Positions 4,534 through 26,400 of a DNA stretch of 26,400 nt are shown one piece after another. The notes below the pieces were generated by a model. That model had not been told where the DNA came from and did not search any database. It saw nothing but the letters and a program-made list of their open reading frames with translations. The position numbers were made by a program, and so were the translations under genes. The stretch lies in IMG/VR virus record IMGVR_UViG_3300030430_003553, positions 1-26,400 of that record. One strand, given 5' to 3'. The stretch is from a virus. How positions within the stretch are numbered: the first letter of the stretch is position 1; each line of letters opens with the position of its first letter.

Positions 4534-5502
4534 ATGGCTATTCAATTTGGAAGGAACGCATTTATTAATGTTTCATCAGTTGCTGAGGGTGCTTATGGTG
4601 ACGGATCAGGAACATTTAACGTATTTAACAGAATATTTTCTTGTTCATTACAAAGAACACAAACAAGAGAACAAGTAACACATCTATCAACTTCAAATGG
4701 TGCTTTCTCAAAAGCTCAATTTGCTGTTCAAACAGAAGTGAGTGGAACAATTGAGATGCCTTTGTATTACGCCGGATCTGGACCTTGGTTAAGATATGCG
4801 CTTGGGACTTCTTCCTCTTCTTCTGGACCTGCACCTTTTACACATGATTATGATGCTACCACCACCGATCTTGAGTCTTTTGCTTTGAAGTTTCAAAGGG
4901 GAACTGGCGGAATGGAGTTATTCGAAGGGTGTATGATCTCAACAATGACCATATCTTGTGCAGCTGGCGAAGAGGCCCGATTGAGTTGTGATATTATTGG
5001 TGAAGATAGCCAAACAAGGGCCGGATCAATATCGCCAAGTTACGGATCTGGAACTCAAGTATTACATAACCAATCAAATGCAAGCGCTCTTCGTTACACT
5101 CCTTCCGGTGGAGTTGCTCAAAATTACACACTCCGATCTTTTGAGTTCACACTTGACAACAAGCTTGAAGATAGAAGAACACTTGGATCTTTGCTGACTT
5201 CATCTCCAGCCGTTACCGATATTCGAGAAGTGACCTTGTCTTGTGTTGCTGATCTTGAAGATGAATTAATATACAACCATCAGCTCGATGGTACAAGTGG
5301 CGAGATCTTGGTTCAATTTACAAGTGGAACAGATGAATTTGTAATAAGACTATTTAATGCTGTAGTTATGGAATACAGCGACGAAGTTAACACAGTTGGT
5401 AGGCTGGAACGCACATTTACATTTAAAGGCTTTGCTGATGCTTCAAATGAAGCATGTAAAATCCAAGTTGTGAATAATGAGAACTCAGCTGTTAGTAATT
5501 AA
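4534..5502 (+). CDS. Major tail tube protein
   Basis: This 322-residue protein has a strong ribosome site (AGGAGAATAAAAAATG). It begins MAIQFGRNAFINVSSVAEG, the usual opening of siphovirus tube proteins that present a complex at the tip. Two similar beta halves follow: one with VSGTIEMPLYYAGSGPWLRY and ALKFQRGTGGMELFEGC, the second with RSFEFTLDNKLEDRRTLGS and ending in a strand pair before TFTFKGFADASNEA. A duplicated tube fold would explain the length, about twice that of a minimal tube protein. It sits directly before the tail chaperone genes. The gene is followed by an A/T-only spacer, so a new transcription or processing unit may start after it. Confidence 0.8.
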   Translation: MAIQFGRNAFINVSSVAEGAYGDGSGTFNVFNRIFSCSLQRTQTREQVTHLSTSNGAFSKAQFAVQTEVSGTIEMPLYYAGSGPWLRYALGTSSSSSGPAPFTHDYDATTTDLESFALKFQRGTGGMELFEGCMISTMTISCAAGEEARLSCDIIGEDSQTRAGSISPSYGSGTQVLHNQSNASALRYTPSGGVAQNYTLRSFEFTLDNKLEDRRTLGSLLTSSPAVTDIREVTLSCVADLEDELIYNHQLDGTSGEILVQFTSGTDEFVIRLFNAVVMEYSDEVNTVGRLERTFTFKGFADASNEACKIQVVNNENSAVSN

Positions 5503-5569: not shown

Positions 5570-6067
5570 ATGAAAGACATATTGCAAAAAATCATTATCA
5601 ATTCTCGGTGGACATATCCGATTTTTGATGGACAAATAATCATCGAAGGTCGGATATTGTCGCCACAAGAGGCCGAGATTTGTGGCTTAAGTTCCGCATT
5701 AATAGCAAAGTCTATTATGACAGAACAACACTTAAGAGACTTAGCCCGTTTACAAGTCAAAGAAGAGATCAAAGAAGAGGATGAATTCGAAGAGGTTATG
5801 CGACTACTTCAAGGGTTTGATCCTGACAAGATCCTACAAATGGCTGAAAGTCAAGATAAGATTCTTGTGAACTGTGTAAGAAGAGCCTCAAGCGACAAAG
5901 GTGTAAAGTGGCAAGACTTCAGATTGGTTCTTGAGGAGTCAAAACAATCAGCCGTACAAAATCGTTTATGGGTTGGTATGTTACCGGACAAAGACCGAAA
6001 AGCAATGATTGATCTTTGTATGCAAGGACACAAAAAAGCAGATGAAGCAATCAGGAGGTCACTTTGA
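5570..6067 (+). CDS. Tail assembly chaperone (G-like), zero-frame product
   Basis: This 165-residue, mostly helical, charged protein lies between the tail tube and tape measure genes, where long-tailed phages encode the G and GT chaperones that coat the tape measure protein. An acidic helix (about residues 60-80) precedes GFDPDKILQMAES, and the frame ends RRSL-stop. The stop TGA at 6065-6067 sits in a prfB-like +1 slip site, so a share of ribosomes should continue into the next frame. The start ATG has only a modest site (GTGAG). No enzyme motif is present. The function rests on position and the slip site. Confidence 0.75.
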   Translation: MKDILQKIIINSRWTYPIFDGQIIIEGRILSPQEAEICGLSSALIAKSIMTEQHLRDLARLQVKEEIKEEDEFEEVMRLLQGFDPDKILQMAESQDKILVNCVRRASSDKGVKWQDFRLVLEESKQSAVQNRLWVGMLPDKDRKAMIDLCMQGHKKADEAIRRSL

Positions 6068-6068
6068 A
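6053..6068 (+). promoter_or_regulatory. Programmed +1 ribosomal frameshift site (prfB-like)
   Basis: The site reads AGG-AGG-TCA-CTT-TGA-A in the zero frame. Bacterial prfB uses AGG-GGG-TAT-CTT-TGA-C: an internal Shine-Dalgarno, three bases, the slippery CTT and a weak TGA stop. The spacing here is the same to the base. Slipping from CTT to TTT puts the ribosome on GAA at 6066 in the +1 frame, which is open to 6287. No start codon lies close enough behind AGGAGG for it to be an ordinary ribosome site; the nearest in-frame ATG, at 6081, is 22 bases away. Confidence 0.85.
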
Positions 6069-6287
6069 ACGGATAAAGAAATGTTTCAAATCTATAATTC
6101 TCTTTCAAGGGCTTATGGTTGTCTACCTTCTGATCTGCTTGGCTTAAGTTGGCACGAGCTTCTTTTTAATCTTCAATGTTTGCAAGTAAGATCTGATCAC
6201 CTACAAAAGATGATAAAGCAAAGTAACCGAAAAAAGGCTATGTTGTTTCCAGTTATATCGATGACTGATCTTGTTGATATTTTGTAA
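6066..6287 (+). CDS. Tail assembly chaperone T-extension, read by +1 frameshift
   Basis: This frame adds 73 residues to the upstream chaperone, giving a fusion of about 238 residues (zero-frame residues 1-165, then ETDKEMFQIYNSLSRAYGC and on). The added part has YGCLPSDLLGLSWHELLFNL, a typical pattern of GT extensions, where the helix after a short loop contacts the tape measure protein. It ends 9 bases before the tape measure start. A separate 68-residue product from the ATG at 6081 is possible but lacks a ribosome site at normal spacing. In lambda and most relatives the shift is -1; here the geometry requires +1. Confidence 0.8.
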   Translation, partial: ETDKEMFQIYNSLSRAYGCLPSDLLGLSWHELLFNLQCLQVRSDHLQKMIKQSNRKKAMLFPVISMTDLVDIL

Positions 6288-6296
6288 GGTGTAAAG

Positions 6297-8708
6297 ATGG
6301 CTAATGTGGTTGAGTATGTTCTCAAGATTACGGGTGGTAAATCAAAAAAAAACATCCGTGATCTTGCGAAAGAGTTGGATCAAACAAAAAAAGAATTAAA
6401 ATTGATAAAGAATAATGCAACGGCTGGATTTGATGGAATTTCAAGTTCCTCAAAAAAAGCCGGTCAAAGTATTTTATCATTGAAAAAAGATTTTACTCTT
6501 TTAACTGGTGTTGTCACAGCTGCAGCCGCTTCTTATTTTCAATTCAATAAAGAAGTCGCTGATTCTGTGAATGAGTTGGTTGATGCTTCTACAAGGTCGG
6601 GGATCGCTACAGAGAAATTAGCTGGTTTAAGACTTGCATTAGAGGGATCCGGAAAATCATTTTCTGAAGTTGAGAGAGGTCTTGATCAGTTTAAACTGAA
6701 GCTTGTTGAAGTCGCTAAGGGAACTGGCGATGTTTCTAAAATCATGGGCCCGGGTGGATTGGGTATTTCTGTAAAAAATCTTGATGGATCACTTCGTGAC
6801 GTCGATGATGTGTTCACAGAAGTTGTTGAAAAGTTATCATTGATGGAGGATGCAACCTCGCGAAATATTGCCCTTCAAAAACTTTTCGGTCGTTCAGGTT
6901 CAGCTTTGGCGCAATCTGGAGCGATAGAGGATCTTGATAAATTTATTGAACAGGCTAAGCAACTTGGGCCAGCATTGGATGAAAACGGGATTGAAAAGGC
7001 CGCAAAATTTCAAAGAGGTCTTGCCGAGTTAAAAACAAGTTTTGTTGGATTTGTTCAGGTAGTTCTCGAAGGTATAACGGGCGAAAAAGGCATTGGCTCA
7101 CAAATGTCTGTTTTGGCTGTGCAATTGAAAGATTTCGGAAAAGGGCTTGTAAAGTTTTTACAAGACATCAAAAAATTTGTTGATGGAATCAACAAAACCA
7201 TTGAGCCTCTTAAAAACTCTTTGGGTGGATTAACTGGTATTTTATCAAATGTTCCCGGTTTTGCAGGCCTGAACACTGTTGTAACAGTAAGCAAGCAGGC
7301 AAGTAAAGCAACACGGACAAGTGTGAAAAATACCAGTGAATTAGAAAAGCAATTTAAAAAATTGCAAACCAGACAAGAAAAAATTGTTTTTTTAGCGGAG
7401 AAGTTCGGGAACATTAGCAACAGAAGATTTATAAGATCAATAACTTCGGATCCTCTTAGTGGTATATCTTTTAAGGATGTTGCAAAAGCTGTTGAAGAAC
7501 TTGAAAAGTCCCAAGAGATTAAATTTGATGCCAATCTTTTCGCACCATCAACGAAAAAAACAAAAAAACCAAGTGTAGATGTTGAAGATGATGAGCTTAA
7601 AGAATTTATCGAATTACAAAAAGAACTTGCAAGTGTAACCGAAAAGAGCACAAAAGAAATTGACAAACAAATTAAAGCAATTGAGAAGGAAGAAAGAGAA
7701 GTTTCAAAAGCACAACAACAATTTCAAGAACTAAAAAAACAAGTTGACCAAATAGGCGAAGATGAAAGACCTTTTCAAAATATCCTTAATGATTTGGATG
7801 AAACGAAAAACAGGTTCAAAGAACTTGGTCAAAGTGTTGTTCCAGTGATTCAATTAAAAATGCAAGTACATGAATTGAGGAAAGAAGTTGAAAAATTGGC
7901 GACAACAAAAACAGCTATCAACATCACTACTGACATAATTGGAATCGCTGGTGGTGATATAATTGGCGGTGTTACTGGGATATTGCAAAAGACACTTAAA
8001 GGATCAGCCTTGGAATTGTTAGGTCCTGTATCTGGTGCAATTGGTGGTTTGGTTTCATTTGGTCAAGGTATGCAACAAGCAGCAGATCAAGCGATAGCCA
8101 AAAGAGAAGAAAAACTCGGAAGGTCCTTAACCGAAGAAGAAAGAGCCAAGTTATCCGATATTGCAATGAGAAGAAAAGCAGAGCAAGATGTTAAGCAGTT
8201 TGCAATGGCTATTGAAGTAGGTTTGAGAATGTTACCACAAATTCTTTTTGAAGTGTTGCCGCCTCTCTTCATTGATCTTGGTGCCAGTATAATAAAAGCG
8301 TTGTTTGAATTGCCTTTTAGAATAGCAAAAGCAATTGTTCAAGGTGTTTTTAACTTTGGCGCAAAGGTAGCCGAGGCACCATTAAACATAATGAAAGGCT
8401 TGGCTGACTTTTTTGGTCTCGATTCAAAAAGAAGTGGAGGGAGGATGATAAGTGCGAGAAGAGGCTTAAGGTTTACAGGTTCATCTGATACCATGGCCCA
8501 ACTTCATCGCAATGAATATGTTGTTCCTGAATCCGGGGCAAGACCACAAGCAGTTGAAAGAATCATGAATCAACAAAGCGGATCTGGCATAAATATTACA
8601 ATCAATGCCGATGTTGTTGAGCGAGACGCTATTGAAACTTTAGTTCGCAAAATAGAACAAAGGTTTCAGAACTTTGGTACAATGCAATCGAGTCTTTTTG
8701 CGGGTTAA
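6297..8708 (+). CDS. Tape measure protein
   Basis: At 803 residues this is the largest protein of the genome. It follows the chaperone pair as tape measures do. It has an N-terminal helical segment, a hydrophobic stretch at about 67-83 (TLLTGVVTAAAASYFQF), long coiled-coil runs (notably about 425-525, rich in Lys, Glu and Gln), and a glycine-rich hydrophobic part (about 535-600) likely to enter or contact the host membrane. Near the C-terminus GSSDTMAQLHRNEYVVP matches the conserved tape measure tail motif. Length sets tail length; at roughly 1.5 angstrom per residue a tail near 120 nm would be expected. No lytic transglycosylase or peptidase motif was seen. Confidence 0.92.
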   Translation: MANVVEYVLKITGGKSKKNIRDLAKELDQTKKELKLIKNNATAGFDGISSSSKKAGQSILSLKKDFTLLTGVVTAAAASYFQFNKEVADSVNELVDASTRSGIATEKLAGLRLALEGSGKSFSEVERGLDQFKLKLVEVAKGTGDVSKIMGPGGLGISVKNLDGSLRDVDDVFTEVVEKLSLMEDATSRNIALQKLFGRSGSALAQSGAIEDLDKFIEQAKQLGPALDENGIEKAAKFQRGLAELKTSFVGFVQVVLEGITGEKGIGSQMSVLAVQLKDFGKGLVKFLQDIKKFVDGINKTIEPLKNSLGGLTGILSNVPGFAGLNTVVTVSKQASKATRTSVKNTSELEKQFKKLQTRQEKIVFLAEKFGNISNRRFIRSITSDPLSGISFKDVAKAVEELEKSQEIKFDANLFAPSTKKTKKPSVDVEDDELKEFIELQKELASVTEKSTKEIDKQIKAIEKEEREVSKAQQQFQELKKQVDQIGEDERPFQNILNDLDETKNRFKELGQSVVPVIQLKMQVHELRKEVEKLATTKTAINITTDIIGIAGGDIIGGVTGILQKTLKGSALELLGPVSGAIGGLVSFGQGMQQAADQAIAKREEKLGRSLTEEERAKLSDIAMRRKAEQDVKQFAMAIEVGLRMLPQILFEVLPPLFIDLGASIIKALFELPFRIAKAIVQGVFNFGAKVAEAPLNIMKGLADFFGLDSKRSGGRMISARRGLRFTGSSDTMAQLHRNEYVVPESGARPQAVERIMNQQSGSGINITINADVVERDAIETLVRKIEQRFQNFGTMQSSLFAG

Positions 8709-18332: not shown

Positions 18333-18548
18333 GTGAAAACACAAAAAGATCAATTTGAAAAATATAGAAGAATGGCCAGGCATCTCTATCATCAGTGTGG
18401 AGGTGAAAAGACTTTTGTGGTTGTGAGTAATTCAAGCCTTTTTGTAGCAAAGAGAAATAGACGTTTCAAGGTGTTTGCAGAGAGCACATATACAAGTCAT
18501 TGGACAATCAAAAAAAAATATCCCTATGAGGTCTTTCGGTATGAGTAA
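18333..18548 (+). CDS. Small basic hypothetical protein
   Basis: The frame starts at GTG 18333, eight bases after AGGAAA, and encodes 71 residues. It is rich in Lys, Arg and aromatic residues with MKTQKDQFEKYRRMARHLYH at the start, strands around TFVVVSNSSLFVAKRNRRFK, and an aromatic, basic end. It may bind nucleic acid. The next gene starts inside its last codons (ATGAG overlapping the TAA at 18546-18548), so the two are coupled. No family was recognised. It lies just after the structured GC-rich segment, which would be its 5' leader. Confidence 0.6.
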   Translation: MKTQKDQFEKYRRMARHLYHQCGGEKTFVVVSNSSLFVAKRNRRFKVFAESTYTSHWTIKKKYPYEVFRYE

Positions 18549-20178
18549 AAAAGAGGCAGCTGCGATCTGGATGAACATTGACGATCTGTATCCAGCACCT
18601 GACAACCCAAGAGTCAATGATCATGTAGTTGATAAAGTGGTCCGGTCAATTCAACTTCATGGATTCGCCGCGCCGATCGTTGCAAACCTTCAAGGTGAAA
18701 TCTTGGCTGGTCATACCAGGTGGAAAGCCGCCAAGAAGATCAATATGGAAAAAGTTCCAGTTCGCCAAATGGATCTAACAGGTGATCAAGCAAGATTGTA
18801 CCGAATAGCCGATAATAAACTTTCAGAGTTTGCTGATTGGGATGAGGATATGCTCAAAGAACAACTTGCAGATCTTGAAAAGGCTTTTCCGGTTGACGTT
18901 GCTGATCTCTTTACTGATGATGAGTTAGAACAGATGTTGAGTGACAAAGATGATTTTCAACTTGAAGAAGAGCCCGACTACTCAAACGAGAATGAACACG
19001 ATTCCTATGATGTGCCAAATGAGTCAAGATTTAAAACAGGCCATATTGAGATGGTTGGAAAACAAAAAATAATATGTGGCGATTGTATTGAAGTCTTGAA
19101 GTCTATGTCAGACAACTCAGTTGATTCTGTTGTCTGTGATCCTCCTTATCAGATTGTGTTTATGGGTAAGAATTGGGATCAAGAGTTCAACACAGAAGAA
19201 TGGGCTCGTCAATGTCTTCGAGTACTCAAACCCGGCGGTCATTTGATCGCCTTTGCTGCTACAAGAACAATACACAAGATTATGTATTCACTTGAAAATC
19301 AAGGGTTTGAAATTCGTGATCTGATAAGTTGGTTGTATTTCTCTGGTTTCCCAAAAAGTCATAATGTTTCAAAGGCGATTGATAAACATTTTGGAGTTGA
19401 TCCGATTGATACTGGAGTGGAAGATCTCAATACAAAAGGAAGAGCCAAAAGAATAAATGGTTTTGTAAATGGTAAAAATTCAGAACCAAATTCAAGAGAA
19501 AGAAACATAACCAAGCCAGCCACAAAAGAAGCAATAAAATATGATGGTTGGGGTACAGCACTCAAACCCGCCCAAGAACCAGCCGTTCTTTGTCGCAAGC
19601 CACTTGAAAAAGGTTTGTCTATTGCGGAGAATGTTCTGAAGTGGGGTACAGGTGGATTGAATATAGATGCTTGTAGGTTTGGTTATGGTGATCCCTGTTG
19701 GGTTGGTCCTAATGATGAAGTTGAAAACATGGTTGGAAAAAAAAGATGTACTATTGGGCATAAGTTATCAGAAAATAATAGAATAATAAATACACCTCCT
19801 TCAAATCTTGGAAGGTGGCCCGCAAATATCTATCAATGTTCAAAAGCCTCCAGAGGTGAAAGAGAAGAAGGGTTGGAAGATCATGAAAGTAAAATAACGC
19901 CTTATGGTTCTTCTTCTTTGGTAGGAGTAAGTGACACAATTCAAAGAGGTGTCAAGAACTTCCACCCAACTGTCAAACCTGTGAAGCTGATGGGTTGGTT
20001 GGTTCGGTTGGTAACTCCGATCGATGGTGTTGTTGTGGATACATTTTGCGGATCTGGAACTACACTTGTAGCTACTGAACTCGAAGGAAAATACAACGGA
20101 ATAGGGATCGAGATGAATCCAGAATATTGTGATATCATTTATGGAAGGGTGAAACATGCCAGCAAAAAAGAAAAGTAA
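18541..20178 (+). CDS. ParB-domain / DNA N6-adenine (or N4-cytosine) methyltransferase fusion
   Basis: The start at 18541 has GAGG at the usual distance; an upstream in-frame ATG at 18475 lies inside the previous gene and was not chosen. The protein is 545 residues. Residues about 8-115 form a ParB-like N-terminal domain with LYPAPDNPR, SIQLHGFAAPIVA and the box GEILAGHTRWKAAKK. The methyltransferase follows: motif IV DPPY (200-203), a long target-recognition region, HPTVKPVKLM (475-484) and motif I DTFCGSGTTLVA (500-511). This order is the beta class; DPPY usually means adenine N6. It would modify phage DNA, either to evade restriction or as a switch. The ParB part may direct it to sites or to the packaging machinery encoded just after it. 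Confidence 0.9.
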   Translation: MSKKEAAAIWMNIDDLYPAPDNPRVNDHVVDKVVRSIQLHGFAAPIVANLQGEILAGHTRWKAAKKINMEKVPVRQMDLTGDQARLYRIADNKLSEFADWDEDMLKEQLADLEKAFPVDVADLFTDDELEQMLSDKDDFQLEEEPDYSNENEHDSYDVPNESRFKTGHIEMVGKQKIICGDCIEVLKSMSDNSVDSVVCDPPYQIVFMGKNWDQEFNTEEWARQCLRVLKPGGHLIAFAATRTIHKIMYSLENQGFEIRDLISWLYFSGFPKSHNVSKAIDKHFGVDPIDTGVEDLNTKGRAKRINGFVNGKNSEPNSRERNITKPATKEAIKYDGWGTALKPAQEPAVLCRKPLEKGLSIAENVLKWGTGGLNIDACRFGYGDPCWVGPNDEVENMVGKKRCTIGHKLSENNRIINTPPSNLGRWPANIYQCSKASRGEREEGLEDHESKITPYGSSSLVGVSDTIQRGVKNFHPTVKPVKLMGWLVRLVTPIDGVVVDTFCGSGTTLVATELEGKYNGIGIEMNPEYCDIIYGRVKHASKKEK

Positions 20179-25587: not shown

Positions 25588-26400
25588 ATGCAATTCAAGC
25601 AGATTCAGATCAAAAAATACAAAAAGCAAAGTGACGACAAAGTAACGTTTATCGCCTCAACTGATGACGTGGATCGCTATTCAGATATCATAGATCAAAA
25701 AGGGTGGTTGTTAGATAACTACAAAAAGAATCCAGTTATACTTTTTAATCACAACTCACAAGCCCTACCAATCGGTCGTGGTTACCCAAGAGTTGAAAAT
25801 GATAAACTGATGATCGATGTCGAGTTTGATATGGATGACGAACTCGGCGCCAAGATAGCCCGCAAAGTGAAAAATGGTTTTATGAGTGCGGTTTCAGTTG
25901 GCTTCAATCCGAAGAAGGCGATTGAAAGAAGTGATCTACCAACCGAACACCGATACTATGGTGAGCGGGGAATGTTCTTTGAACAAGCAGAGTTGCTGGA
26001 GGTCTCAGTTGTAACCATACCAGCGAACGCAGCTGCGATCGCCGCCAAAAGTTTAGATCTTGAATTGCTCATTGCCAAATTGCTAACAATCACAAAAGAT
26101 AAGATTGATTATGGTTTGAAGTCAAACGCAAAAGAAGCCATGGAAGTTCTCAGCGCAGGAACACAAACCGCATTGAAGAACAAAGCCAAAGACCACAATG
26201 AAAAACACGGCGATGATCCAGCCAAGAAAATCACCAACTCAAATTATTTAGCTGTGTCCTATCATCGAGGGTTGGCCGCCTTCCACAATAACCCGGCCTC
26301 CGTTCGCCCTGGAATCACAAGTGATAATCAATGGGCCATGGCGAGAGTAAATGGTCTATTGTATGCTTTGAGAAATGGAAGGTATAGATCTGGAAAGTTT
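25588..26400 (+). CDS. HK97-type prohead protease, N-terminal part (continues at base 1)
   Basis: The frame starts at ATG 25588 and runs off the end of the window into base 1 in phase (bases 26302-26400 repeat 1-99), giving 514 residues in total. Residues 1-150 are the protease: VILFNHNSQALPIGRG with His55, FMSAVSVGF with Ser103, and the family block ELLEVSVVTIPANAAA (135-150). From about 185 follows KAKDHNEKHGDDPAKKIT and a module continued in the 1-831 part. The protease matures the prohead by cutting the scaffold part of the capsid protein encoded next. A weak site (GTGAGGG) lies 8-14 bases before the ATG; the spacer before it is A/T-rich. Confidence 0.9.
   Translation, partial: MQFKQIQIKKYKKQSDDKVTFIASTDDVDRYSDIIDQKGWLLDNYKKNPVILFNHNSQALPIGRGYPRVENDKLMIDVEFDMDDELGAKIARKVKNGFMSAVSVGFNPKKAIERSDLPTEHRYYGERGMFFEQAELLEVSVVTIPANAAAIAAKSLDLELLIAKLLTITKDKIDYGLKSNAKEAMEVLSAGTQTALKNKAKDHNEKHGDDPAKKITNSNYLAVSYHRGLAAFHNNPASVRPGITSDNQWAMARVNGLLYALRNGRYRSGKF
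26302..26400. repeat. Terminal direct repeat (right copy), circular closure
   Basis: Identical to bases 1-99. It lies inside the prohead protease gene, so it cannot be a duplicated functional end without a repeated gene part; an assembly overlap of a circular or permuted molecule is the simplest reading. Confidence 0.95.

Follow-up and report, generated by a model that had tools for sequence, protein, structure and literature searches.

A probable prfB-type +1 frameshift site at the end of a predicted tail assembly chaperone gene, and an upstream Shine–Dalgarno and hairpin at the homologous codon in related phages

Introduction

The tail assembly chaperone genes G/GT of long-tailed phages are located between the tail tube and tape measure genes, and frameshifts in tail chaperone genes are usually −1. 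A +1 frameshift takes place in prfB, for which the consensus is described as a Shine–Dalgarno (SD) sequence, a spacer of 3 nt, CTTT, TGA, and a C after the stop (PMC12421855). The account of PRFect ranks CUU first in slipperiness before a stop codon, followed by CCC and UUU, and every CUU-stop +1 case that it reports from RECODE is prfB (PMC10885494). On the 70S ribosome, a hairpin located by the E site was reported to stimulate +1 frameshifting at CUUUGA with ca. 60% of the effect of the SD (Huang et al., 2018; PMC6321510).

Here we describe a site in a virus of the IMG/VR collection (record IMGVR_UViG_3300030430_003553, positions 1 to 26,400; this whole stretch of 26,400 nucleotides is referred to as the window). 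The site shares with the described prfB consensus AGGRGG, the 3-nt spacer, CTTT, the in-frame TGA, and the +1 direction (PMC12421855). It differs from prfB in that it ends a phage tail-chaperone gene instead of lying in the release factor 2 (RF2) gene, that TGA is followed by A instead of the termination-weak C (PMC12421855), that the spacer codon is TCA instead of TAT, and that the short product is presumably functional, not abortive. With lambda-type G/GT genes the locus has in common overlapping frames between the tube and tape measure genes, with a long form made by frameshifting, but the shift would be +1 instead of −1 and probably stimulated by an upstream SD. Among tail genes, the tsh genes of Listeria PSA, A118, and A500 are described as shifting +1 at CCC_UGA, also with a stop codon in the A site, and in HF1-group haloviruses a TTT-CGC +1 shift has been proposed between the tube and tape measure genes, which equals the TTT_CGN motif of most relatives of the window; the portions of these reports that we consulted describe for them neither a prfB-like SD-N3-CTTTGA nor an upstream SD with a hairpin (PMC5009743, PMC7230728). 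Influenza A PA-X and plant amalgaviruses are reported to use the UUU_CGN motif as well, but these are eukaryotic viruses without an SD, and the window and its closest relatives are without UUU_CGN (PMC5052127, PMC7230728).

Results

G, T, the site, the two neighbouring genes, and the alternative starts described below are on the plus strand. The first tail-assembly-chaperone frame, G (5570..6067), has 165 codons and ends with TGA. The first-pass annotation had stated that the +1 frame stays open past the site for 73 residues, and we confirmed this: the extension T (6066..6287) has 73 codons and ends with TAA at 6285–6287, and the GT fusion reads ...RRSL-ETDKEMF... across the junction. The upstream neighbour is the tail tube protein gene (4534..5502), which matches Pfam Phage_tube_2 (E 1.3e-23) and the tail family phrog_290 (E 1.4e-24). 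The downstream neighbour is the tape measure protein gene (6297..8708), with matches to phrog_8462 and phrog_2276 (tail length tape measure) and to PhageMin_Tail at an E-value of 8e-8, just under the cut-off of that profile. Flanked by these two genes, G and T take the position expected for tail assembly chaperones, and the same gene order is common to six related contigs (L008, L009, and L013–L016). No clear match to a curated chaperone family was found for G and T; the tail assembly chaperone family phrog_4336 gave weak matches in 4 of 19 G members, with a best E-value of 0.025. The predicted structure of G is poor (pLDDT 43.7), and Foldseek with the T model returned annotated chaperones only at an E-value of about 1, none at good E-values. 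Alignment of T from 19 members reveals conservation from the first residues on, with D3, R15, Y17, L20, P21, L27, and W29 among the invariant positions. On the basis of position, architecture, and weak profile matches, we infer that G and T are tail assembly chaperones.

Two further features of the window were observed. Positions 1–99 and 26302–26400 share one sequence of ca. 100 bases, which makes it probable that the record is a complete genome, either circular or terminally redundant, with a size of ca. 26.3 kb. A 567-codon ORF at 18475–20178 appears by eye to combine a ParB-type domain (LHGFAAPIVAN..LAGHTRW) with a DNA methyltransferase (VCDPPYQ, FCGSGTT). No match to an RF-1 domain or a release factor gene was found in the 26,400 bases of the record.

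AGGAGG-TCA-CTT-TGA with the three-base spacing, which the first-pass annotation had placed at the end of the first chaperone frame, is indeed there, at 6053–6067 and in the same frame as ORF 5570–6067. The SD-like putative stimulator AGGAGG (6053–6058) ends 3 nt 5′ of the slip codon, as in prfB-type sites, and the spacer between them is the codon TCA (6059–6061). The slippery CTT_T (6062–6065), on which the P-site tRNA-Leu would slip from CUU to UUU, is invariant in the window and its three sister contigs, the four members of what we call the window's clade; all four also have GGAGG. CTT directly adjoins the in-frame TGA (6062–6067), again as in prfB-type sites, and this TGA (6065–6067), the stop of G, would occupy the A site when slippage occurs. 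The base 3′ of TGA (6068) is A in all four members, and hence the C of prfB-type sites is missing. In this clade the duplex with the anti-SD at the 3-nt-spaced position has an energy of ca. −10 kcal/mol. The 26.4-kb window has a single AGGRGG-N3-CTTTGA, and 100 dinucleotide shuffles gave none. By itself the DNA motif is unspecific, as GGAGGTCACTTTGA is present in at least 119 viral DNA stretches, mostly away from G/T-like junctions. The DNA motif alone was therefore rejected as a family-wide marker, and the weight of the case rests on position and conservation.

The G proteins of the three sister contigs L007, L008, and L009 are 96, 93, and 68% identical to that of the window, L009 being the most distant, and those of other relatives are about 30–44% identical. 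GGAGGTCACTTTGAA is unchanged in all three sisters, though L009 diverges at many other places, and each of them retains the 73-codon +1 extension. The dN/dS of T is about 0.04–0.46 in the +1 frame, which indicates purifying selection. The open +1 frame of L009 has no ATG, GTG, or TTG ahead of T codon 26. The RF2-type site was found in these four genomes only: a search for AGGAGG-N3-CTTTGA at the same overlap, as proposed in the initial annotation, recovered it in the three close sisters and in none of 61 more distant junctions.

The wider family, which is composed of uncultivated phages, was gathered by tube-protein and chaperone-profile searches. It comprises 65 distinct junctions with a complete G, including the window's four. 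All 65 have T in the +1 frame, with a length of 72–74 codons in every untruncated one, while lambda-type −1 entry into the second frame was seen in none. TTT serves as the slip codon in 61 junctions (TTT-type), and CTT in the four of the window's clade. C or T invariably comes next, which would allow the P-site tRNA to re-pair in the +1 frame. Since Phe elsewhere in the same genes is encoded by TTT 145 times and by TTC 93 times, the invariant TTT does not reflect codon bias alone. Of the 61 TTT-type relatives, 47 have CGN directly after TTT, which forms a UUU_CGN motif that is absent from the window with its CTT_TGA. At the shift sites of L173 (3875–3883) and L181 (4493–4501) stands TCC_TTT_CGT, the same nine bases as cited for influenza A PA-X. 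When fused proteins from two distant clades are aligned with that of the window over the junction, their TTT falls opposite its CTT, and the T alignment is gapless from just past the slip codon. The stop codon of G lies 0–4 codons after the slip codon over the 65 junctions (TGA 54, TAG 8, TAA 3). L144 is the sole TTT-type relative with a stop in the A site; in this hairpin-type locus (L144:4472–4477) TGA comes right after TTT, an arrangement intermediate between the site types. Pattern scans of sequenced prokaryote genomes found no relatives, and 50,697 phage records held no relatives of G from the window or from two hairpin-type subclades, nor of one GT fusion. By the criterion of the initial annotation, relatives in which both frames persist but the SD or CTTTGA is missing would speak against its reading. 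The distant relatives literally match this description without refuting frameshifting: at the homologous codon they have a different +1 signal. This strengthens the case for frameshifting and makes the RF2-type site a feature of one clade.

We then inspected the sequence upstream of TTT. An SD-like element is located ca. 27 nt upstream in all 44 distinct TTT-type sites compared, in forms such as AAGGAGG, GAGGAGG, AAGGGAGG, and GGGGAGG, among others. Its anti-SD energy averages −10.2 kcal/mol, compared with −1.2 kcal/mol at the remaining codon positions of these genes. Between this element and the slip codon, a Watson–Crick stem of 4–6 bp ending 4–6 nt before TTT is present in 17 of the first 17 TTT-type loci examined; stems of 4 bp or more occur at 4–17% of other codon positions. 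Over all TTT-type sites the hairpin energy averages −6.9 kcal/mol versus −1.4 kcal/mol at other positions. A folding energy of −2.5 kcal/mol or better is reached by 95.5% of the TTT-type sites versus 22% of other positions, so that in a few of these sites the stem is weak or not clearly present. Paired stem positions covary. In one subclade 93% of the aligned stem cells are paired versus 24–38% when the stem is slid, with 0 of 500 shuffles reaching the score; because the stem sequences share ancestry, which the slid controls preserve, the shuffle counts are not to be read as probabilities. In a second subclade 85% are paired versus 24–54%, with the outer pairs less constant. In the window's clade both the SD at −27 and the hairpin are absent, and the SD is at −9 to −4 instead. 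In a tree of 63 fusions this clade forms a single branch (support 100/100) among hairpin-type rows; the tree is unrooted and hence gives no direction for the exchange of stimulators, for which one change suffices. Deletion of the hairpin is unsupported as the origin of the window's site: from the conserved CAC to the slip codon, G is one codon longer there than in L173. On balance, the family appears to represent natural +1 frameshifting driven by an upstream SD and a small hairpin before UUU_CGN.

T could also be a separate protein initiated by translational coupling at one of two ATG codons in the +1 frame, with the motif being incidental. Both candidates (6044..6046, upstream of the site, and 6081..6083) exist in the window, L007, and L008, but both are missing in L009, which has ATT at the position of ATG 6081. 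The placement of AGGAGG, downstream of ATG 6044 and 22 nt from ATG 6081, is wrong for either. Many TTT-type relatives have their first possible T start deep in the conserved T domain (at codon 19–49 of 72 in several hairpin-type ones), with conservation extending to the slip codon. Unconserved in L009 and in the TTT-type relatives, an independent T start at these codons was rejected, and we consider this explanation very improbable. A similarly improbable candidate is that AGGAGG serves as the ribosome binding site of a third-frame TTG ORF (6064..6147, 27 codons), with the frameshift layout as a by-product. The 5-nt spacing between AGGAGG and TTG (KRIKKCFKSIILFQGLMVVYLLICLA) is good for initiation, and none of the four clade members interrupts the ORF, which encodes a basic and then hydrophobic peptide; across the overlap, T shows little synonymous change. 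However, the first half of the peptide is radically altered in L009 (KCFKSIILF to KFLLSTMRL) while changes in the +1 frame are conservative, the ORF has no conserved counterpart in the other relatives examined, and it leaves the production of T unexplained. Such a second use of AGGAGG could possibly coexist with frameshifting. Positions 6045–6059 are complementary to 6125–6140 over ca. 15 bp, and pairing would mask the internal SD; this possible long-range helix has p values of 0.002–0.01 against synonymous recoding in the three closest genomes and is unsupported in L009.

Entry into the +1 frame by a −2 shift, transcriptional slippage, an assembly error, or decay into a pseudogene is extremely improbable. 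Shifting by −2 likewise reaches the +1 frame in phage Mu, as reported (PMC5009743), but here it would leave the P-site codon poorly paired, whereas +1 re-pairing is good (CUU to UUU; UUU to UUC or UUU), the next base being a pyrimidine in every junction. Most sites have only three or four consecutive U, too short for polymerase slippage, and an assembly error or a pseudogene is at odds with the 65 distinct sequences that have the junction and with the purifying selection on T. The reading of the first-pass annotation, that an RF2-type +1 site joins the two chaperone frames, is supported by its retention in all three close relatives and by the lack of a conserved T start. That annotation had also suggested that the GT:G ratio follows the RF2 level of the host, tying tail assembly to the translational state of the host. 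In all four clade members, UGA stands in the A site beside the slippery codon and the SD, the same arrangement is described as rendering prfB RF2-sensitive (PMC12421855), and hairpin-driven +1 shifting at CUUUGA in vitro is reported to have been seen only without RF2 (PMC6321510). Set against these points, 60 of the 61 relatives have a sense codon in the A site for the equivalent shift, their TGA, TAG, or TAA following 1–4 codons on. The stop of G is TAG or TAA in 11 of the 61, TAG being read by RF1 only. Since the conserved +1-frame codon GAA imposes UGA on the window, the identity of this stop is no evidence for RF2 sensing. Coupling of GT/G to host RF2 is therefore unsupported, and we regard it as doubtful.

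Discussion

Our comparison makes it very probable that GT of the window is produced by a programmed +1 frameshift of RF2 (prfB) layout at the end of G; its relatives probably shift with the help of an SD and a hairpin. Most ribosomes would terminate at UGA and yield G. In a fraction of them, AGGAGG would pair with the 16S anti-SD at the unusually short spacing of 3 nt while CUU occupies the P site and UGA the A site; tRNA-Leu would slip from CUU to UUU and reading would resume at GAA, giving G-T. G and GT would then coat the tape measure and recruit the tube protein. In the relatives, tRNA-Phe would slip from UUU to UUC or UUU, in most cases before a sense codon in the A site, aided by the upstream SD and the hairpin. 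From these sequences we infer the slip and its efficiency, the roles of the stimulators, and the equivalence of the two. In the window's clade, the SD beside the E site would stand at the position of the relatives' hairpin. As a hairpin is reported to mimic the SD duplex on the 70S ribosome (PMC6321510), the two site types look like a natural exchange of equivalent stimulators. The engineered hairpin of that report, like that of the relatives, is located just upstream of the E site; as described there it is synthetic with a long stem, whereas the relatives look like a natural example with a short stem and a further SD upstream of the hairpin (PMC6321510).

The module of SD and CUU_UGA has been reported essentially only from prfB, as far as the PRFect account goes (PMC10885494), and within the openly accessible literature that we found, a hairpin stimulator was tested only in engineered reporters (PMC6321510). 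The present loci suggest a rule for recognizing such genes in phage sequences: ahead of a tape measure gene, an ORF that has near its 3′ end a TTT before C or T, preceded by a hairpin and, at −27, by an SD-like element. A family that would always shift +1, with two stimulators at one homologous codon, may offer a ready comparison of SD duplex and hairpin.
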